Source of the DNA: Phlebopus portentosus
Taxonomy: Eukaryota; Basidiomycota; Agaricomycetes; Boletales; Boletinellaceae
DNA: 64,000 bases
Assembly (NCBI GenBank): GCA_037892935.1
Contig: JAYXKI010000013.1
Location: 248,001 to 312,000, forward strand
Direction: 5' to 3'
The notes beneath the pieces are model-generated. The model was not told the DNA's origin. It did not search any database and saw nothing but the letters and a program-made list of their open reading frames with translations. Each line of letters begins with the position of its first letter. Within the stretch, counting starts at the first letter, position 1. The position numbers were made by a program, and so were the translations under genes. Positions 43,820 through 58,048 of the stretch are shown here, in pieces.

Positions 43820-46451
43820 CCCGGATATCATTCGGGCTTTCAATGACCCTCATTACTGCCTCTTTTCGTGCAGATATACAGATCATCGGACCATCGGTGG
43901 GTCAATTGATCGGATAAATGAGAGACAAGCGTAGTGAAATGGAGGTATTTGGCCAAGTAAAGGTATATTGAGTGTCAAGACCACCAGTAGCAGCACAGAA
44001 GCATGTGGAAGCAATCTACATGACGAACGCAAACTTTTTGGCAATCGTTGTGTTTAGCTGTAGGAAACGATCAGCGCTAAAACAAGCATGGATATCAATC
44101 GACACGAGCTGAAGCCAGGCACATCCCTACGGAATTGTACAATAGCATAGCCCACAGCATTGGTTGCAGCTACTTTCATCTGTGAAATTCGCTCGATCTG
44201 GATTATAGATGACGATTATCATTTTCAAAGCCTTCGCCTGAATTTGCATAAGTCAAACTTACTTTCCAAGTGAGCAATGTGAAGGTTATTTTCGCGAAAT
44301 GAGTTGTACAAGTGTTATCCATGTGTCCTGCATTCGGAATAAACTTCTATCCGCATCCAGGCGACCTGCATCAATGAGCATCCACCATCGCGCCAATATA
44401 AACGTCAGTAACTTTTAGACACACGAAGGTTACGCTCCGATGAGAAGGTAGTTTCAGTTCCACGGAGCTGTGGAAGTATGGCGCGCGGCGTCCTCGGTAT
44501 ATCCGCATCAGTGAAAAGTTCGGCTGCACATTTTCGAGACTTAGGTTTTCTGAATGTTTCGGCTGAGTATCCCGAAAGGTTTCAATGTAGAAAGGGGCAC
44601 AGACCGACGCAACTGTTGCTATTGCTCTTCTTTCTCCACGTTTATACTGCCTCTCGCCTCGTTTCGGTGGGATCTGCCAAGGTTATGTTTAGAATGCTTC
44701 CGTAGCTATATCATCACTTCTTTTTCGTCTGATCCTGTATCAGCCTACAAGGCCCGTTGTCCGAGTTTTACGGTGTCAGGATAAAGACGCGTCTGTAGCT
44801 GCCTATACTTGCAAGCGCTATGAAATATCTAATTTGGGTCGTTAAAACACCGGCAGAACTTCCCGAAATGCGGGAAGATTGTGATCTCGTTGATGTATGA
44901 GGAAGGCGCTTGCCACTGTTGGAATGAAAGATGAAATTTGACTCTGAACTTGTATGTAACGACGAGATACGAGCTCTGTTGATAATCGTCGCCAGCTACT
45001 ATTCATTGAGCAAAGGTTCTCGCAATCGGCGACGTCGCCCGAGCATCCTTCAATTATTTTGGAACGAAGCAATTCCCAATTGCTGGTGATATCTTGTTCT
45101 CCGTTTAGATAGGGCGGCCAAGCAAACACGAGGTTGGAAAGATGAGAGTGATTAAACTTGAATGAGAGAGCCGATGGTGGCAGACAGAGGACAAAGCCGA
45201 CAGTGTGTATTTGCTTAGAGTGCATATGGGAATGGGAGTGCCGATCCCGGAATCAATTGGACTGGCAGTTTTCGACTCACGCGTGGGGCAGTCGACTGTA
45301 CTTCTCGTTCCTCGCTGGCCTATCAAATACGATGCCACCATCATCGATGTTCTTCTCTCGTGCGACGTTGGTGCAGATTTGCGGATAATGCTGCCCTAAT
45401 CTCGTCTGATGTGGAGCGTATCGTGGTAAGTAGGTTCGTTTTCATGGCTCTTGCGTATAAACCTTTGATGCGTCATGCGTCATCAACGGAGACCGATATG
45501 GAGACGTTGCTTGAGACATTGCGAAACATGAAAAGAGGTATGCATGGTTTTAGAACAGCTTCTTTGGAGGGGGCAGGTAATAATGACGATGGGAAACAGA
45601 TGAATCTAAGCCTCGGCAGATGCAAACACCTGAAAGATCGGCGCCTATCGATGTATTGGTTACACAATCCGGTCCGGATGACCTACAGTCAAGAAGAGAA
45701 ATCTTCATGTTTAGCACGCGTGGAGAGGAGACCAAGCGCGGGACCTCATGACGACCGATCACAACCAGCGACGGACGCGGACAGACAGGCAATGAGCCAT
45801 AATCCCATAGGTTTAGGGTGCTCAGGAAGGATGGTATGTACAGGAGTGTTTCTCTGGAAATATACTGCTCGTTGGATTGTGGTTCTAAACCTTGTGTAGT
45901 ATGGGTGAGTGTCATTATTGATATTTTACGTTTTCGGTTGTGTGTTGATGGATTGATACTATCATCTTTGTTTCAGGATAGCCTGTCCGAGCTAAAAATT
46001 ATGGCGGTACTTCGTCCCGTTTGAGTAAGAAAGCCAATTTTGCATGCTAGTTCCACTCTACGTGCTCTTGCCGTGGAAACCTTTGTTCTTCGCTTCCTCT
46101 ACTTCTCCGACCAATGCATATGTAATCACGCTCTCGCTGCCCTTTCCTCCCTCTTTCTGACATCGCCGTCTGGGCATGCCGTAACGTGCCATACTCTGCA
46201 CTGCCTCTGAGGGTGCGAAGAAGATGATTTATAACTGACTATAAGGATAGGACGTATTCATTCTTCAGTACTCGCGCCGCTTAGCCGTCCGTTGCTCATT
46301 GAAAAGCTCGAGGCGCTTAACGCACACTGAATATCTTTTCTGTCCATCCCGTCCGCTATCTTACTACTCAGAGCCGGAGCATCAGTGTAGTCTTCGTCGC
46401 GCCGTTGAGCATTCACCACCGCCAGCCCACTATTGTTGTCCCGGTCCGGCT
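43820..46451. other. Gene-poor stretch
   Basis: About 2.6 kb. Open frames on both strands between 44.8 and 45.9 kb (up to 179 codons) overlap each other and show no motif or family. The last 300 bp upstream of 46452 are C/T-rich, as expected for a fungal promoter. Confidence 0.4.
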
Positions 46452-48239
46452 ATGGAAGGATACTATGCAACGCACCATTCTTATGGACCTCCACTAGGAA
46501 ACTATCCCTCCGGAGCCTCATTGCTCCCCAATACCAATCAACCCGAGCATAGGACTCTCCTGGACGCTTCCATACATTCCCACCTGAACGAGCAATACAG
46601 CTACAACCACTATCGCAGCCCAACCCAACCATCAAATCTATCCAACTCTCTGGCAGGCGGTTTTGGACCTGATCCTGACTTCGTACAGTCATTGCGCTCG
46701 ATAAGAGCGACTCAATCGAGTCCGGGTCAGGGGCGCTTAGGTGGATCGAATGGCCCCACAGAGTCGGAGGCGTTGGTTGCTGAGACGATCGTGCGCGCTC
46801 GCAAAAGCTGGAAGACAGTCAAAGGTCGTAATGAGCCTGTCTGGCCTCCCGAGCTTGAGAAGGTCCTCGTTCAAGGTATGTGTCGTGCACCCATGATCCC
46901 AACTTTAATCTATCTTTTGATGCCTTCCTATCTTCTATATTTCTCGTCGGCTATGTTGCAGCTCTTCTGTCATATAGACCGGACGATGCGCAGTTCTCCC
47001 GCGCTCTAGGCCGGTTTCCGAAGCGTAACCGCTACATATCTGATTACATCTTCGCCACGACTGGCATACGACGCACCCCGAAGCAGGTCGGTAGCCGGCT
47101 GCAGCAACTGAAGGACGTGAGTTGCGGGAAGATGCGTAAGTTCTTTCGATTACCCTTGCATGATCTATAGAATCACGCTTCCCGGTATTTCGCCTCTGCC
47201 GCGAACTACGATCGAACAAGAATCTAGATCTTTCCATTCGTCGACTTGTTTCTATATTACTATTTTGACATTCATCGGGCTAACGTCATCGTTTATTTCA
47301 AATCCCAGTCTTAAACCACGTCGCAAGCTGGGCTCAGACTCCATCCAGCTCAAGTTCAGAACCGTCAGGCGACTCTGGTGATGCTCTTGCCGAAGAATCT
47401 CAACTCGATTACAGTGCCATTCTCAATGATGTAAACGAATTCGCTTCTGGATCAGGTTCGCAATATCATTTATTATATTGGTACTGATCAGAAGCTTACC
47501 CTGACCCTTTGTTGACAATTGTATTGCCAATTGGGACCTCTGTCGATTCCCGATGTCTTCTACTACGGCCCGCCACGTTCGCTCGCGCCACTCCGCTTAT
47601 TTTCCTTCCATATTTGGGTCTACTTGTCAAATCCATGACCAACTCTTATTCGCAAACACACGACACATTCTTTATGTTTTCGTGGGTCCGACTCTATACC
47701 GTTATTCTGCTGCGCATTGGTCGTATCACTGTGCTTATGCTCGGACACGAATGGGATATTAATGCGAACTCCAACGCGCGCATTTTAAATTCAATTATCG
47801 GATACAACGTCTCCAACGGAATTGTATATCGATGGAATAACTGCGCATCATACGGTCCTCGATACTCCATGGACCGATATATAACCCATCCCTCGTCCTT
47901 CATACAACTCGTCTGGGATGGCTCATACCACAGATGGTTCCCAATCCCCCGTAACACCTCTGGCGGTCATTGATCAGGGCCCTCCATTCTCAGCTCCATC
48001 TGCATCACCAGGTGTCCTACATTCATATCCGGGGAATACACAGAACATGTATCCACAAGCAACGTGGCTCGCATATGAGCATTGCTTATCTCAACTATAG
48101 GTCTGCAGTCTGCGGAGGTCATAAGAGGGAAGAAGGTAGTATGCGGGAAGGATTAATGTGTGACGAAGCATGTATAGTTCATCCGAATTCTCATACCCAT
48201 GTCCTCGGGACCAAGCGGTCGAGGATAATCAGAAGCTAG
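46452..48239 (+). CDS. TEA/ATTS-domain transcription factor, gene A (short paralogue)
   Basis: ATG 46452 (MEGYYATHHSYGPPLGNYPS). Exon 1 (to 46875) ends inside the TEA domain: PTESEALVAETIVRARKSWK, then EPVWPPELEKVLVQ. Exon 2 (46962-47135) completes it: LGRFPKRNRYISDYIF and RRTPKQVGSRLQQLKD, the DNA-recognition helix region. Exon 3 (47309-47455) reads LLNHVASWAQTPSS and onward. A 478-nt intron free of AG over its last 437 nt follows, then exon 4 (from 47934) with DGSQSPVTPLAVIDQGPPFS. The end is either the in-frame stop at 48100 or, if a 53-nt intron at 48048-48100 is removed, a stop at 48239. TEA proteins (TEC1/AbaA/TEAD class) bind CATTCY-type sites and control development. Gene A lacks the long C-terminal half seen in gene B, so it may be a truncated or competing regulator. 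Confidence 0.75.
47456..47933 (+). other. Long intron 3 of TEA gene A with a 437-nt AG-free zone
   Basis: Donor TCAG|GTTCGC, acceptor CCACAG|AT. From 47495 to 47931 the sense strand has no AG dinucleotide. A consensus branch point CTGAC lies at 47501-47505, at the start of the zone and about 430 nt from the acceptor. Exon 3 ends in phase 1 and exon 4 resumes in phase, giving SGSDGSQSPVTPLA. Confidence 0.8.
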
Positions 48240-50451
48240 CGTCTCGTTTGTAAATAGTACTTCGAATACATATTGGCCAACGCGATATGCAATATGGGTG
48301 CATGTTCTGCCGACGATGCGCTCCTTACTGGTTGAACTTTCGTACGGAGACCGGATACATCTTCGGAGTGTCGCCAAGATGTTGGACAAGCCAACTGGCT
48401 GCATTGAGCAGCGGGGTTCTTGGTCTGTCGGGACGTATTACGATAGACGGAGAGTCTCACTTTAGTTCCTTGAGGCTTCTTGAACCTTAAAGTTGAGAGT
48501 AAATTAGCGACGCCAGAAGACTAGGCACAGTCTGTGAGCAATAGACGATCTCCAGCGTATTGAATCCGCGACTGGTATGAATCTTAAACGGCACTCCAAT
48601 GAAACGTCTTCTTCGCATACTGCAACACTTATGGAAAACAGACATCACTCACTTTTCGCGTCAGAGACTACTCGTGACGCGTCAGAACTCTATGATGGGG
48701 CCGGGTTGGTTTCCGGGACAAACTGCATTGTGACCATGCTCTCACAAGAAGCGTATGCACAGTTCCCGATTCGAAGGACCCGAGAGGGACCACGCCAGTG
48801 GAGCGGAAGAATTAGCAAGAACTTCAGCTGGGTTATCATAGGACTCTACCATCTAGCGGCTACTCGAACTAATCTTAGGCAAGCAAGATTCGTGACGGAC
48901 GTTCCTCGTGTTCGAAATGGCATAGCGATGCGTGCCATGGGAAAGTATCTTGTTCACCGTCTGCGCGGTTTAATGGTATGTGAGACCGGGACATTCCTTT
49001 ACTGGGTAGCAATTTAGGGCTATCGGATGGCATACTTACCTACTCTAGAAAGTGAAGAAAAACTGCACGGGTCAGTGGTCATCATTACGTAACAGTTATT
49101 GCGTAAACGTTTCGGAGTTTGATAGAAGCCGTTTATTGAGATTGACCCTTTCTCTCCATCACTGGTTTTTGTCTAAGATAACTGCACAGATTTTATTCTA
49201 GTCTCCGTTCCATTTAAATCCTGTCGTATTCTAAGCCAGGGTTTGCTTCACTCTCCAAGTTCAGGATGAAGAATCTGTTAAGTGACGTTAGCCGGGCGAT
49301 CATATAAAAATGCACACAAAAAGAGGGGAGTTGTGCGTGTGCCATTTATCAGATAGGTAACTCTTATCTTATTGGAAACCGGGCTTGCTCTTCAGCATTG
49401 AGAGTATCGTCGCAGCTCGATCAAAATCTTTCTATTTTCTGCCGAACTCAGTCATTTTGGGACAGATGTCTATATCTGTCTATTTTCCCGGTTTTAACCT
49501 CTGTGGATTTTACAGACAGTATCATATCTGGTCTCTCACGACTCGTATATAGAACTGATCGTAGGTAATGTATCGACACAAGCGCTCTGGAGTCTATAAT
49601 TTTTGCACCTATATGCAGGGGGATCTGGCCGCTGTCATCCTACATGAGAAAATTGCATGGATCTTCCTCATGACGCCACAGGAGACTCTCTAACCTTTGT
49701 ATCCCCATCCGGAGACCTAGAATGGCGGAGTTCTAATATCTCACATTCAGTATCAGAAGAGCTACGGTATTCTTATGCGCCGCACATTGGACATGCACCT
49801 TCTTCAGGAAGCCAGGCTACGCTTACGACGACCGAGTAGCGGCGGGAACAGTTGAAGACGAAAGTCGTCACCGAGGCCTCTGTATCGTCTCTAAAGGCCC
49901 TGGAGAAACAGGGGCTAGCCTTACACGTGCTCGAGGAAAGTTAGTTAGAAGTCAGTGTTCTTCAGAACCGTACAGTCATTTACCATCAGCGAGGAAATTG
50001 GACTGAGTAAAGAATATGAAGATTCGGAGTCCGCCGGTCTGCCGGAAGTGCAATCTCGAAGAAATAAAGCCAATCCAATGACTTCCCGATGCATACAGCA
50101 TGCGGAATTCAGACTCGCAAGGAACGATTTGTACCGAAAAAATTCTTTTGCGTACGTACCGTGACGAAATTGCATGGAATGAGTTAATAGTCATACTTTT
50201 TTTAAAATGTGGTAACAGGGTACTAAAGGCCAGATCAGGAAAATTAAATAGGGAATCAAACTTCGTCCTTATTACATTTATAAAATTATCTAACAGATTC
50301 ACCATATACCGAGTAGTATCTCCATATAAGGAAGCTGAGGCGTCACTTTACCTAAGGTACGTGACTAATGACTTCTCTGTGGCCCAATTCAGTAACGTGC
50401 TTCCTTCTCATCATCTGAGTTTTAACTTCCTTGAAATCTGCTTTATGCAAC
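48240..50451. other. Gene-poor stretch between the TEA genes (left part)
   Basis: A 146-codon frame from ATG 48577 has no recognisable family. An AT-rich segment lies near 50160-50300. Nothing else can be supported. Confidence 0.4.
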
Positions 50452-50838
50452 TCAAGCTAGAGAAGGTGCATCCTTACGATTGTGTCTGTTAGGACATCCT
50501 GAAGTTGCAAGAAAATATTCCCAGAAAATTTTAAATATCAACCGTTTCGCCATTGATTCACGTTCCACAGGGGAAGCTGTTTCCTCTCGCCATCCCGCCT
50601 GGACCTTACCCTCTGGGACATCGAACTCTTTCTGCCGAGCTTTGAGAAACTTGGCCGCGCTGGCGACAAGATAGATACCGCCTATCAACGCTATTCGCAG
50701 AAAGTCCGCTTTTCTATGACAGCTCAGAGGTCCTGTTGGAAAATCTCTTTCTCGCCACAGCGGCCAGACTGTCGCACGCTGTAATATTAAATTACCCTTA
50801 AAAACGAGTCTTCCAGTTGGCATGTGCCAGAAGAACAA
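50452..50838 (-). CDS. Possible small membrane-protein fragment
   Basis: The minus-strand frame includes ADFLRIALIGGIYLVASAAK, one plausible membrane helix, followed by FLKARQKEFDVPEGKVQAGW. This recalls the helix-plus-basic-tail layout of small trafficking proteins such as the Pga2 family, but the match is weak. The start is not resolved and no flanking exons are obvious. It could equally be a chance frame in a patch richer in G+C. Confidence 0.2.
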   Translation of the reverse strand: MFFWHMPTGRLVFKGNLILQRATVWPLWRERDFPTGPLSCHRKADFLRIALIGGIYLVASAAKFLKARQKEFDVPEGKVQAGWREETASPVERESMAKRLIFKIFWEYFLATSGCPNRHNRKDAPSLA

Positions 50839-53652
50839 GGGAAGGATACAGAGGGAACACTCGTGCTGTCTTTCTATCAGGAGAATCGGCCGATCGGTCT
50901 CTATATCTAGATTTCCCTCACGAAAGCAGTCGGATTCGCAATGGGCTAGATGTTCTTCCTACTTCCCCCAAGCAACTTTGAATGGAACGAATATATGGAT
51001 CTCATATTTTCATGGGATGTTCTTATCTTTTGGGCGGTGTTATTGACATAATTCCCTGCCTTCTACTAAGGAAGCTTGATGGGGGGTTTTGCTAATTACT
51101 CTTTTGTTGTCGTGTCGGCCGCTTTATCTTGCATCTGAGTATACTGCTCAAAGCATTGTAGACCCATAATGTAGGATGCGGGCGAGCCGGTGTTCCTTTT
51201 GGTGACCCTGATGTTTCCATTCTTGCAAAGAGTCGAACGGGTCGGCTTGCCTTTCATTATACCTTATGTGTACATCGTGTTACCGCGGCCTCTCTGGCAT
51301 GCTATTGATCGCAAGCTCATCGAAAAAAGCCATACCGCCGCCGTAGAGTCAACCACCCACTAAGGAGTAATGATATTCTCTCCTGTGGTTCGACACCTTT
51401 GCGGCACCTCGGCGGGACCTTTCATGAAGTTATGTCCTCCCCTTTTCTCATCTCTTACTCGTGGTCATTTGGGGCAGATAATGGGGGTGCCCTCAGACAC
51501 GTTCTCCACACGAGTACGTCGTGGTCATCTATGCCTCCTTGCCGTAAATATCTTCGCACTATTCACTAGCTTCCAGACACAGCGAGGACAATTAGACTCT
51601 TGGTTTCGGCAGGGTGAGCACCGGCTCCTGGCGATTGCGGTCATCAAGAGCAGACACATCTACCAACCAGCATCTGAACCCTCATCCTTCGCTGTACAAG
51701 ACGCTTATCCTTCCCAGACAAACTTATCGCCTGATTCTCACCGACCGACAGTACTATCTTCTGCGTTTATGACAGAAGGAGAGGTGGGACGTTGAGAATG
51801 GGGGAAAGGCAAGCACTGAGGTAATGTCAGATTTCACCGTCTTCAACTGAAGTCTTTCTTTGGTCAGGGGAATGTGAATGACAGTCTTGACGGTCCTCTC
51901 TATACCTTTAAACATCGAGCCGATAACCGCGCACGTGGACGCCAGAGACATACGAGATGGGACTGCCTGCAGCGCGAAAGAATGTGTCCAGAGAGAAGTC
52001 GAAAGACCGTTCAATAGACCGTTCAACACGCCCTTAGTCATACTATACGGTCTATCTCGGTATCCACAGTGACTCACGGAAAGGCTTCTTCCTTCATCTA
52101 GTGGCAGACTGCTATGCTGCGACATGGGCTGAGCAACCGACTGAAAATTTTCTTACATGTATTAAATCAACTACCCGCTGGGCAGCCCGGTGGAGAGGAG
52201 CTGCTAGATTAGTTTAATGACGACGAGCATCCCGCCAGCGTTACTAGGAGAAAAACCATTGCCTGACTGTGAAACAAAACAGGACGGCATCATAACTCCG
52301 GATATCGGAAAGGAAGGTGTACAGCCATTGTAGCGGAATAACCAAGAACCCACTGTAGAACAGTAAATTAAATTTCCTCTATTCAGTCCGCCCACAGTGT
52401 GGTGCGAGAGGCAGGAAATATTAACCCATATACTCTCCGTCCAAACAAGCATGGGTTCAGCTGGAGGACGCATATCGGATCGGCATCAGCAACGGGCCGG
52501 CGACAGTTTATAAGGAACTATTCGACTAACTAAACCTGAGGTTTATGTAATAGAATTAATGGCGTTCAATAGGTTGAAATAGTTTTCCAATACGTCAAAC
52601 GACCTATGCAGGTGGCCGCAAGGTTTTCTTAGGGATAGGAGCACAAAGCAAAGTTTAGTCTAGAAATAGACAGAGGATCAGAATTGGATAATGTGACACA
52701 GCCATCAACGAGAGTAGGGATTGGCAAAGTTAAAAGTGCACGAGATTGATGCATGGAAGCGGCTCAGAAAATTGTATGAAACTCTTGTAAGGCAATGTGA
52801 ATGATATACTCGGAAAGTGGACATCAAGGGCGATACAAAATCAGATGTGCGGGAAGGAGACGGTGAAGTAAACGATAGGGTGTGTACTGTACAGACAAGA
52901 AACGCCGGATAAAGTAGTCGGGAAGATCAAGATATATAATGTGTGAAAGGTAATGCAAGCGAAGCAAACAGACGATAGTGATGCAATAACAAATGCGGAT
53001 AAAATGACGCATGGGTACTATTGGCTGAGATCTTGTTGTATAAGTGGACAAATCGGGACAAAGAAGTGGTGTAGATGAGGCGATAGTTATAGAGGAAAGG
53101 TCACGTTGAATAGATTCAGATGAAGCCGATAACAGTACAGGCGCGTGTCTGGCCACTGGGATGGAAGAAGTGGCTGACGCACGTAAAGGAAAGTCCATAT
53201 TGCTCCCGTGATGAGGTTCCGAAACACACATGAAAGGATAGAAGATTTTGCGTGGGGGTCGATCAAAGGTTTTGCACGCGTTCCTGTACCGCTCTCCGTG
53301 AGTCTGAGATCAACCATCGTCGCGGAACGGCAGGATGCGGAAAATGATGGATAAACTTCGCGGGTACGGCGGAGACGCGAATGTGAGATGAGCAAGTGGA
53401 GGGGTGCACGTTGTATTTAGACTCGGAGCTTGCAGCGGGAACTGAGGTGACCAATATTAGAGAAGTAGGGGACGGCGAAATTGCTAAGAACTCTGTGAAA
53501 GGGCAGGCGGTCTAATCAGATAAACATAATATTCACAAATAGTCCACGGATAACGCGGAACGTACATTTTAAGATACATAAAACCATGTCAGTGAGACGG
53601 GTCCAAATTATTTCGCTTCAAGAATAGGTTGTTCCGAGGAGTGGTGAAAAGT
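50839..53652. other. Gene-poor stretch between the TEA genes (right part)
   Basis: About 2.8 kb in which no open frame on either strand has a motif or recognisable family. No terminal repeats or transposase motifs were seen. Confidence 0.4.
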
Positions 53653-56600
53653 CTAGCAAAAGGAATAGGAGTTGTCAAAGCTTGTCGTCACTGTCGGGTT
53701 CGTAGTTAATTGCAAGTTCTCCATATTAAGCTCTCCGAATCCAGCATCATAATTGGAAAATGTGCCAGGGCCGACATCGGGATTATAAGTGTTGTAGCAC
53801 TCCTCCTGCATAAACTAACGTGTAATGATAATCCCATCAGCCTCTTTGATGGTTAGAATATCAGGTAGGGTAAACTCACAGGATGCATCAGAACTCCAGT
53901 CTGAGAGATGGTCGGCGTGGGAGCTTGCACGGAAACTTGAGGCAAACGCGCCTGAGAATGGGAATGTGAGTACACTTGGGCACTATGCGTCTCTCTATAG
54001 GCATTTTGGCCGTGTCCATGATTGCTACCACTATGGTGGGATTGCCAGCTTTGCGATTGTACGAAGGACGAAGGGCTTGCGCTGATTGGTGAGGGTGTCC
54101 CACTGGACGCGGGTGACACGGAGCCTCGCAAGTATCCCTGACCGCGGGTATCCAAAGACGAAAGCATAGAATGCGAGGGCGGATGCATGGAGTTAGTTGA
54201 GCTTGATATTGGGACGAAGTGATAAGTGATAACAAGAAACGCTTCGCCGCGCCTGGTCGTCGGACTATCAAAACTATGCATTAATTCCTGTATGATAGTG
54301 TATCGTCGCAGACCAACTATGAGCAAAATTTGAGCATCACGACTCAAGGATATACAGAAGAAAGGTCCAGCCACGTACCTCCTTCTCGGCGCATCGCGCT
54401 CCACACCGCATCATCAACGAGATGCGTCGCGTAGACAAAACGTTCGCAACCATCCTCTCTTCTTTCTTCAGGAGGACATTGTTGGTCGAATAGAAGGATG
54501 TCTGCGCTGCGCTAGCTCGAGCTACTGGTGTCTGTGTACAAACTAGAGCATCGATGTGCTGGTGTACTTGCACTAATGTGGAGTCTTCCATCTTTACGCG
54601 TGTCCGCATATCGGCCGACGTGGTTAAGTGGCTAGAGGCAGACACGGACGACATGGATGAGGAAATAGGTCTGTTGTCGACCCAAACACGAGCTACGCTC
54701 CGAGCACCAATAGGATCTCGAGAGGAAAATGTAACGCACGAATCCAGATGTCCAGACGTCTGCCCAGCATCGATGGGTTGGGGAGCGTTCACCGTCTCAG
54801 GACGAGCGAGACATCCGGCAAAGCTTACCAACGGTCGACCGTTCTCATTTCCATTTTCACACTTTGATTTGCCTTCACAGATATTGGAGGGATTGAATGG
54901 CACAAAGACATCCATTTTCCGAACGGTGGGAGTAAGTGGTGGAGAATCAAATAGCCACTTCGGCACCGAGGCGGGCGCGCCGCGAGCCGCCGGATGAAGT
55001 GATGGTTGAGTATGGTACGGACTCATTGCCGCTCCTGCAGGCAAAGAAGCCTCTCGCGCGCCAGCGCCTCCACCTGCAAGCGGTGATACGGGGGACGGGG
55101 AGTCTATTGTGGCGCCCGATGGTCCAACGCAGTGGAATTTCGAAGGGTTGCATCATGAGAACCGAAAAGAAATCAAAGAGTAGCAAACATAGACAGACGT
55201 GGCACGATCGAGAGAAGACACCGAATAGAACGTTTTCGGAGGGCGAGTTGCGTCGTTTGTTTCGATCGTTCGGACCGCCGGTTATCGGGTCATTTTTGTA
55301 TGGTAATGGCAATGATTGGGCGGCGTGCAGGAGGATCATGATTTCGAAATCCAGGGTACCGGACGAGATAAGGTTTGTTCAAAATTAGGCGGATTGTTCG
55401 ACGTGGGATGGAGAGGAGAGAAGAGAGGGGGTGGCGTCGTTAGCCACAATGACCGGTGGATAACAGAATAGTGAACAACAAGTACGTTTGGGGTGATTTG
55501 GAGAGCCCGCGGTTGTATTCATGTCCATCGTGAATCCAGAGCCCAGTGCGATCCGAGGAATAATTAACGAATGGTGACGGAGTGGTATCAGATAAAGATC
55601 AATCGAAGGTGGAAGTTATTATCGCAGAGATGTATAAGAAGTTGCCCGAAGCAAAGCAGAGATAGAACTCCTTAGTGAATGCAGTCCTTTTGTAACCAAA
55701 ACACGTAAAAGTTGCGTACCTGACCCATAGCCATGCATGCCGTTTATGATCACACTGAGATCGGGGTGAAGACTTGTAGAGGAGACAGCTGCGTCATTAC
55801 CGGTGGAAGACTTGGGAGAAGATTGGAGCGCCCAACTCGCGACATGATTAAGGACTGAATAACGAGAATCAGTCGTTTATCTAGTTATTCTTACAGCCAA
55901 AAGCCGAAAAGGTCCACCACTTACGCATCTTTCCGCAGCTGACGTCCTTTAGTTGCTGTAGGCGGCTTCCGACTTGCTTCGGAGTGCGCCTCACACCAGT
56001 CGCCTCGAAAATGTAGTCGGAAATATAGCGATTGCGCTTTGGGAAACGACCCAAAGCACGTGCGTACCGAGAATCGTGTGGTTTATACTGAAGGAGGGCT
56101 GTATTACAGTAGTAACAATCAGCAATGACGAAGCTACCTCGAGATCAAAGGATGTACTACTTACCTTGGACAAGAGCTTTTTCAAGGTGCGGCGGCCAAA
56201 CAGGTTCAGAGCGGCCTTTGACAGTCTTCCAGCTTTTGCGGGCACGTACGATCGTCTCCGCAACTGCCACTTCAGACTCAGTCGGTCCGTCAGCTCCTAC
56301 GCCTCCATGGTCGACGCCATCCTGGTCTCGCGTTCCGCGTATGGAGAGAAGTGAATTCATGAACTGAAAGTCGCTGCCCGGGTTCGAGTCATCGCTAGGC
56401 GAAAAGGGAGCATCATGTTGATGTCTGATATCTTGCATGCTCGATCCAATGTGTGAGCTACTAGCGTTCGCATGAGCTTGAGCACGGTGTGCATCAAGAG
56501 TCTGAGAGTGAAGCATATCCAGTTCGCTGTTGAACTCGGGCGACGGTATATCGTCAGCGAACATGAAGTCAGCGGATGATGCACAGACAGACTCCGGCGG

Positions 56601-56660
56601 GGAGATTGAGCCAGGAGAGGGAGCGTCATACACGTTCGGGTAGGCGTATTGCGGATTCAT
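53653..56660 (-). CDS. TEA/ATTS-domain transcription factor, gene B (full-length paralogue)
   Basis: Start 56660 (MNPQYAYPNVYDAPSPGSIS). Exon 1 (to 56165) and exon 2 (56098-55925) form the TEA domain: PTESEVAVAETIVRARKSWK, EPVWPPHLEKALVQ, LGRFPKRNRYISDYIF, RRTPKQVGSRLQQLKD. Exon 3 (55854-55720) reads LLNHVASWALQSS and onward. A 616-nt intron follows, then exon 4 (from 55103) with DSPSPVSPLAGGGAG. Further exons add a Ser/Pro-rich region with VTFSSRDPIGARSVARVWVD, then ILLFDQQCPPEERRE and FVYATHLVDDAVWSAM. After another intron, TIIQELMHSFDSPTTRRGEA leads to a His/Ser/Gln-rich tail. A last exon (from about 53812) begins EECYNTYNPDVGPG and ends with TAG at 53653. It is a predicted nuclear developmental regulator of the TEC1/AbaA/TEAD class. 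Intron positions 1-3 match gene A. Confidence 0.8.
55104..55719 (-). other. Long intron 3 of TEA gene B with a 562-nt AG-free zone
   Basis: On the sense (minus) strand the donor is TCAG|GTACGC and the acceptor CAATAG|AC. From 55667 to 55106 there is no AG on the sense strand (no CT on the plus strand). A strong pyrimidine tract lies at about 55436-55408. CTGAT near 55591-55587 is one candidate branch point. Exons 3 and 4 join in phase 1, giving GSDSPSPVSPLA, homologous to gene A. Confidence 0.8.
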
Positions 56661-58048
56661 GGTGGTATGAAGTTATGTGAGGGGATAAGAAGGATGAACT
56701 ATGCAAAGGAGATGTTTCCAGGGATGATGAACGAAGAAAGTGCAAGATGCAGGAGGGTGTCGGTAAAGACAATGGGTAAAGACAATGAGCAAGGCTGCTA
56801 TGAGATATGCGGTATGCGGACACTAAAATCCCGATAGCATTTTAAGCACTGCGCAGCGGGTGATAATAAGTCGACGCTAGCTCCTAGACAGTCGTGGTAG
56901 TGCAGAGACAACTTGGTGGTATCAACGTTAGGCCCTCAGCTGCCCTTATATAAAAAAAGCTAAGACGCAATAGCTCGTTCCGATCTCCTGCGTTCTGACC
57001 TCGGAGGATGCTTCTCTGAAGAGTGATCTTCTTCCCTCGTCGGCACAGCACGAGCCTGGCACCACGCGTGAATCTGTGCATAAGCAATGGCTGTTTTAGG
57101 AACTCAGGGTCTCAAGAGGGGGATGACGGCACAATATCTCAATTTCCTTCCATCAACTGGACATCCCATTTCCGTATAGTGAAATATCGGGGGGCGTGAT
57201 GTTGTGACCGTAACATAGTGTCGGCGGCGTCCAGAAAGGGGGCCAGCTCGGGTCAAGCAGCGAATCCGTACTTGAGAAGAGTTGATGAGCCGAACAAGGA
57301 TTGAAAAGGCGCGAAGCAGACGTCGGCTTGCACGCCGTAAAATTACAAAACAATCCTTGGGCAAAGCCGGCCAGAATTTCCAGCAGGACCCCCTCGGTCA
57401 ACGACCAGAAATGACAAAAGCTAAAGCAAAAATCAATTAAATCAAAGCGAAAATAGTCATGGCACATCATAGCCTTACCCGTCCACACTAGACAGAGTTT
57501 GGGACCCATCGCCCGCCTGCCTTCTCATGCTCGGTGCAGCCAGATCACCGTCCTCCGTTCGGATCTCCTAACATTCCATAGCCACCCCGAGTCTCTGAAA
57601 GCCTCCGTACGGGACTCGGCCAACCTAGCGCAATGCCCGAGATTGTCGCTCGTCGCTCGTCCTAAGGCACCGTCTCTTCTTCCACCAAGCCGCATGCTTT
57701 GGTAATCTGTGTGCAATTTCCGTTCATTGCAAATCCAACCTATTGATGGCATTTCATGAGCGAGATTAACGCTAGATATGTTCCGCAGGCGATACTTGTC
57801 CTCCGAACCGAAGCCGAGATGAATATTGATTAATTTCGTCCGCGTTAGATCGACTGTCGAGATGGATGAATTCCTCCCGTCCTTTCTTGAGAGCCTTTTG
57901 TCCTGCTCATCGCGTGTCTCTAGCTACTTTCCATGAAGAGAAGCCTCCGTCACGCGTAAGAAATTGCGTTTTTGCCTTCTGAATTTTCGCTTTCCACGAG
58001 CGGCGGCATCTGACAACGGGTTTGGACTTGCCATGTCACGCTGGACGT
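56661..58048. other. Upstream region of TEA gene B
   Basis: No gene supported. Short frames on both strands lack motifs. It probably contains the promoter and 5' UTR of TEA gene B. Confidence 0.45.

Follow-up and report, generated by a model that had tools for sequence, protein, structure and literature searches.

Exons with distant branch points are described in human genes, where they carry AG exclusion zones, as in PTB exon 11 (381) and its paralogue nPTB (438) (PMC1431707, Gooding et al. 2006). A further human candidate, PTP sigma, is reported at 1126 and is unverified (PMC1431707). In S. pombe the acceptor lies on average 12 nt from the branch point; splicing of a reporter was poor at 30 nt, although about 40 native introns have a distance of more than 30 nt (PMC9508853). 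For budding yeast, a shortage of AG in the interval from branch point to acceptor is noted as data not shown (PMC11651659).

Two homologous introns of the paralogous TEA genes A and B were compared with these systems. Like the human exons of PMC1431707, they have an AG-free tract that runs to the acceptor, with a branch-like motif and perhaps a pyrimidine stretch at its 5' end; AGs near the motif are tolerated, a good proximal site is lacking, and the introns form a paralogue pair. They differ from the human exons of PMC1431707 in their host, a wood-decay fungus, in the shortness of the other introns, and in a zone that takes up about 91% of the intron; no alternative exon is known for A and B, and their branch points are predicted. 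The branchpoint-distant acceptors of S. pombe that need Sde2, Cactin and Tls1 are also fungal and far from the branch point, and the three families are matched in the present host, but the S. pombe distances are about 21-39 nt, against 446-568 nt for the predicted A and B branch points (PMC9508853). The telomerase RNA of S. pombe also has a long distance from branch point to acceptor; that RNA is noncoding and is released after step one, whereas in A and B a conserved coding exon follows (PMC4299874). The initial annotation took the arrangement to be an undescribed device. This is right only in part, as AG exclusion zones behind distant branch points, PTB and nPTB included, were already reported in humans (PMC1431707), so that the layout, even in paralogues, has a human precedent. 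Given the PTP sigma candidate at 1126, 562 nt is no overall record (PMC1431707). What seems to be new is that the host is a fungus, how far the acceptor lies from the predicted branch point, and that the zone covers about 91% of the intron. No intron from a fungus with a zone of this size was found among the literature matches listed (titles and starts of abstracts, with few subscription journals), which is weak evidence of absence.

The window is the whole stretch of DNA that was analysed (64,000 nt). Genes A and B lie in it tail to tail on opposite strands, with their long introns about 7 kb apart. The features are:

53656..56660, minus strand: TEA gene B, TEA domain and long C-terminal region (PF01285 match; tblastn with P0001)
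46452..48100, plus strand: TEA gene A, the short paralogue (PF01285 match; P0006)
55104..55719, minus strand: intron 3 of gene B, between exons 3 and 4, 616 nt, GTACGC...AATAG, phase 1
47456..47933, plus strand: intron 3 of gene A, 478 nt, GTTCGC...CACAG, position and phase as in B
55106..55667, minus strand: AG-free zone of gene B, 562 nt, 91% of the intron
47495..47931, plus strand: AG-free zone of gene A, 437 nt, 91% of the intron

The TEA domain (PF01285) was matched at 81.4 bits in B and 65.3 bits in A, both above the cut-off of 25.1. Gene B starts at 56660, and the final tblastn match to Sanghuangporus vaninii P0001 stops at 53656. Among the matches listed, the proteins closest to B were P0001 of S. 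vaninii (identity 93% over 95%) and P0002 of S. baumii (identity 88% over 97%), and the closest to A was P0006 of S. vaninii. Compared with the models of these two species, exon 4 of gene B shows an apparent frame change at 54448-54469 (tblastn, from frame -2 to frame -1), which may reflect either a misassembly or a true allelic difference. Contig C2 carries a third TEA gene, which is of a different type (locus L004, G000:C2:726540-726734). On its strand L004 contained no AG-free run longer than 125 nt, and no counterpart of the long AG-free intron was recognised there.

On re-check, the absence of AG from the sense strand of the 616-nt gene B intron between 55667 and 55106 (562 nt) was exact. 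The paralogous intron at equal position and phase, with the flanking peptides given by the initial annotation, was likewise confirmed (478 nt, 437 nt of it AG-free). The junction peptide of gene B, GYGSDSPSPVSPLA, also occurs in the annotated models P0001 (S. vaninii) and P0002 (S. baumii), and that of gene A, ASGSDGSQSPVTPLA, in the annotated model P0006 (S. vaninii); the comparison covers protein models. Five other introns delimited in the two genes measured 62-173 nt, and three of the five have the donor GTAAGT. The two long introns have an unusual donor in common, GTWCGCAAY (55719-55711 and 47456-47464), from which the donor of the Fomitiporia gene B seems to differ.

Expected dinucleotide counts were calculated from the base composition of each zone. 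For AG, 20.5 were expected in B and 17.7 in A, and none was observed. GA was near normal (27 observed against 20.5 in B, 20 against 17.7 in A), as was CT (52 against 52.9 in B, 34 against 38.6 in A). Since CT on the sense strand is AG on the opposite one, the depletion is limited to sense-strand AG. The Poisson probability of zero AG is exp(-20.5)=1.3e-9 for B and exp(-17.7)=2.1e-8 for A, for tracts that were picked beforehand. As a control, both strands of 313,901 nt of the host genome (38.4 Mb, 23 contigs) were used, sampled at 26 loci on contigs C1-C6 and C13. This sample contained 113 AG-free runs of at least 100 nt. Ranked by expected AG, introns B and A were first and second, and the third run had an expectation of 7.1. 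By length they were again first and second in the first 273,901 nt, followed by runs of 262, 241 and 206 nt. The 262-nt run (L020, 5981-6242, minus strand) is T- and C-rich and is tied to no gene here. In the 241-nt run GA is missing too over most of the length, which marks it as a composition effect.

A blastn comparison of introns A and B gave nothing above chance words (best E 1.5), and a search of the host genome, with simple repeats outside its scope, gave no second match for either; a repeat or mobile origin was rejected on that search. As one intron is on the plus strand and the other on the minus strand, and each is free of AG in its own sense direction, the property follows the direction of transcription. 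The proposal of the initial annotation that selection, rather than inheritance or chance, keeps the zones free of AG is supported by these observations (dissimilar introns, opposite strands, no second genomic match, AG absent from both sense strands).

Candidate branch points were placed by motif:

47482..47487, plus strand: predicted branch point TACTGA of gene A, branch A 47487
55672..55677, minus strand: predicted branch point CACTAA of gene B, branch A 55672
55439..55443, minus strand: second branch-point candidate CTAAC of gene B, branch A 55440
55410..55431, minus strand: polypyrimidine tract behind CTAAC, all C/T (all-pyrimidine 20-nt windows)

The candidate branch adenosine of gene A lies 31 nt from the donor and 446 nt from the acceptor end, and that of gene B 47 nt and 568 nt, respectively; the CTAAC candidate of B lies 336 nt from the acceptor end. 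Each zone opens shortly after the branch A of a CTRA motif, at 8 nt in gene A and 5 nt in gene B. Of 40,428 AG-run starts, 3,088 have a CTRA within 10 nt, as do 63 of 837 starts of runs of at least 60 nt (about 7.5%). After the candidate branch A, AGs occur at +3 and +6 in gene A and at +0 and +3 in gene B, with none further until the acceptor. AGs less than 12-15 nt from a branch point are reported as bypassed (PMC1431707), and these four lie inside that range, which fits the placement of the branch points. Going back from the acceptor end, the first 280 nt of the B intron and the first 428 nt of the A intron contain no CTRAN branch A, though a degenerate site may lie there. The first motif of gene B is CTAAG, short of the CTRAY ideal. 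In the other introns CTRAN was present in three of five, 14-25 nt before the acceptor end and with AGs upstream of it; its absence from the remaining two makes the motif a weak guide. The best 20-nt stretch after the upstream motif is 85% pyrimidine in B and 75% in A (top 3.5% and 8.3% of windows, respectively), and the tract at 55431-55410 in B is better.

We consider it quite probable that branching near the donor, choice of the first AG as acceptor, and purging of every intervening AG together account for both introns. The spliceosome would branch at the adenosine near the donor, 47487 in A and 55672 in B, and in gene B perhaps at times also at CTAAC (55440), as the motifs suggest. The acceptor would then be the first usable AG downstream, 446 nt (A) and 568 nt (B) away. 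Because an intervening AG would be used, wrecking the frame or the protein, each new one would be purged by purifying selection; the outcome would be an AG exclusion zone that takes up about 91% of either intron. To judge from family matches, second-step factors, Sde2, Cactin and Tls1 among them, may assist. All three families had matches above cut-off in the host genome, with Hep_59 presumably representing Tls1. The short yeast distances count against branching over 446-568 nt (S. pombe, PMC9508853).

An RNA fold that would shorten the path from branch point to acceptor was rejected on folding and graph-distance shuffles. The gene B intron folded worse than 20 of 20 shuffles, and the gene A intron was average, with 30 of 100 shuffles at least as stable. 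Graph distance from branch point to acceptor was no shorter than in 25 shuffles each for A and B. In the minimum-energy fold of gene A the branch region is paired with the final nucleotides before the acceptor, but shuffles do as well, at 38% of 500 for the duplex and 52% of 25 for the graph distance.

The cross-species comparison was made on protein models rather than on orthologous intron DNA. For the DNA of relatives, contig searches with P0001 and with an alignment, A1 (13 of the best 120 of 338 matches), gave 1, 63 and 53 pattern stretches, none encoding a relative. In Fomitiporia mediterranea gene B is present as two models, FOMMEDRAFT_151020 (P0121) and FOMMEDRAFT_151019 (P0019), each of which seems to cover one half of a single TEA gene, with the division at the long intron. 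P0121 seems to read through the donor (...DHGSG, then VFNLIIGPVISFH, then a stop), and P0019 begins before the common SPVSP exon, apparently inside the intron. If an equal donor is assumed, the stop of P0121 after FH would put CAY plus a stop codon at intron nt 39-44, which is suggestive. Also suggestive is that the implied Fomitiporia CAYTRA (unless the stop is TAG) would be close to CACTAA at nt 43-48 of the B intron. A Phellopilus model (P0122) seems to end shortly past the long-intron donor, with an ambiguous codon phase.

The first part of P0019 was aligned in order with the B intron at a score of 57 (2,000 shuffles, 33.1 +/- 4.8, P 0.0005); against the A intron the score was 32. When this piece of P0019 was searched against the window as a whole, its top match was at the right place with 25.0 bits, but the ten best of 200 shuffled queries reached 26-30. 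As shuffled queries outscore the piece window-wide, its homology rests on place and order. A likelihood test of the piece under AG-free against AG-allowed DNA gave a log-likelihood ratio of +3.14 nats in favour of AG-free, a value equalled by 0.3% of 300 AG-allowed simulations and by 1 of 100 window chunks; 67% of AG-free simulations scored no higher than the piece. This test uses a gene model, which may hide false introns, rather than DNA. The lower GC of the Fomitiporia genome (40.83%, PMC10410303) also bears on it. The peptide model P0019 would extend the absence of AG to another genus, indirectly. A coding origin of the zone was also considered and rejected. The Fomitiporia-like frame in B is interrupted by stops and differs from the exon 4 frame, which makes a conserved protein unlikely. 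In the gene A zone one frame stays open through all 145 codons, probably a chance effect (simulated P 0.039), and the longest open stretch of the gene B zone is ordinary (P 0.65).

A different placement of the branch point in gene B is a lesser but real possibility, namely that CTAAC at 55440 with its pyrimidine tract is the working site, 336 nt from the acceptor, and the upstream CTAAG is minor or unused. CTAAC is the best motif in that intron and has a 100% pyrimidine tract directly behind it, but the 228 nt upstream are AG-free too, where 8.1 AG are expected (exp(-8.1)=3e-4), which speaks against this placement unless the upstream site is also used. It also has no parallel in gene A, the intron of which has CTRAN motifs only at nt 32 and 49. 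CTAAC would still be a distant branch point, differing in place and not in kind. The initial annotation had suggested that a pyrimidine tract at about 55436-55408 could bind U2AF far from the acceptor. The tract is real (all-pyrimidine at 55431-55410), but with the AG-free 228 nt upstream a U2AF site there cannot be the whole story.

It is unlikely that a degenerate branch point close to the acceptor is used and that AG is absent for another reason, either frequent retention that needs an acceptor-free intron or a sequence-specific RNA element. The two other introns without CTRAN leave room for a cryptic proximal site, but proximal branching would need no purging of upstream AGs, and the 173-nt intron A2 does have AGs upstream of its CTAAC. 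For an RNA element, P0019 hints at some sequence conservation within the zone; against it, a common element should leave similarity between A and B, which was not found, and there was no Rfam match at gathering scores in 46000-57500.

We regard as improbable that the long gap slows or blocks exon ligation, with many transcripts cut at the donor and then discarded, so that the intron would act as a brake on the expression of the TEA genes. In the telomerase RNA of S. pombe, TER1, a distant acceptor combined with a strong branch site causes release after step one (PMC4299874), and the failure to find a folding shortcut is in line with such a fate. On the other side, the sequence past the junction stays in frame in the Sanghuangporus models and in the Fomitiporia A-type genes, so full splicing must occur, and discard by itself leaves the removal of every AG unexplained unless ligation still matters. 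That AG is absent through chance, base composition or a repeat can be set aside almost entirely: the longest other AG-free runs (262 and 241 nt), being pyrimidine-rich or T-rich, show composition able to yield long runs, but both of the two homologous introns are AG-free, their own-composition expectations are 20.5 and 17.7 against 7.1 for the next run, and neither has a second genomic match.

Under the preferred reading, with branching near the donor and first-AG choice of the acceptor, regulation of the TEA genes through the long intron would be plausible. If left unspliced, the A transcript would be read as far as the TGA that is part of its candidate branch motif and the B transcript for about 30 codons, so that the product would have the TEA domain but lack the C-terminal part. 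The zone has no room for a cassette exon with an AG acceptor. There is a slim chance that both paralogues have a kinetic gate at exon ligation, with a fast first step by the donor, a delayed second step some 450-570 nt away, and a fraction ligated or discarded that is set by second-step factors during development. The TEA/ATTS gene tea1 is required for normal mushroom formation in Schizophyllum (PMC5428507). If the kinetic gate were true, the AG-free tract would be a tuned delay line in two transcription factors of that mushroom-formation family.

If the branch points are where the zones imply, basidiomycete exons are joined across gaps more than ten times the 30 nt of the S. pombe reporter. 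The first-AG rule would then apparently have been kept in two paralogues until the remaining intron sequence had diverged beyond recognition. With 562 and 437 nt free of any AG, GAG included, the zones would amount to a natural saturation test of which AGs are acceptor-competent. They may explain the split Fomitiporia annotation and are a warning that such introns can be missed. With exclusion-zone introns in a fungus, scanning and second-step factors could be put to the test outside vertebrates.
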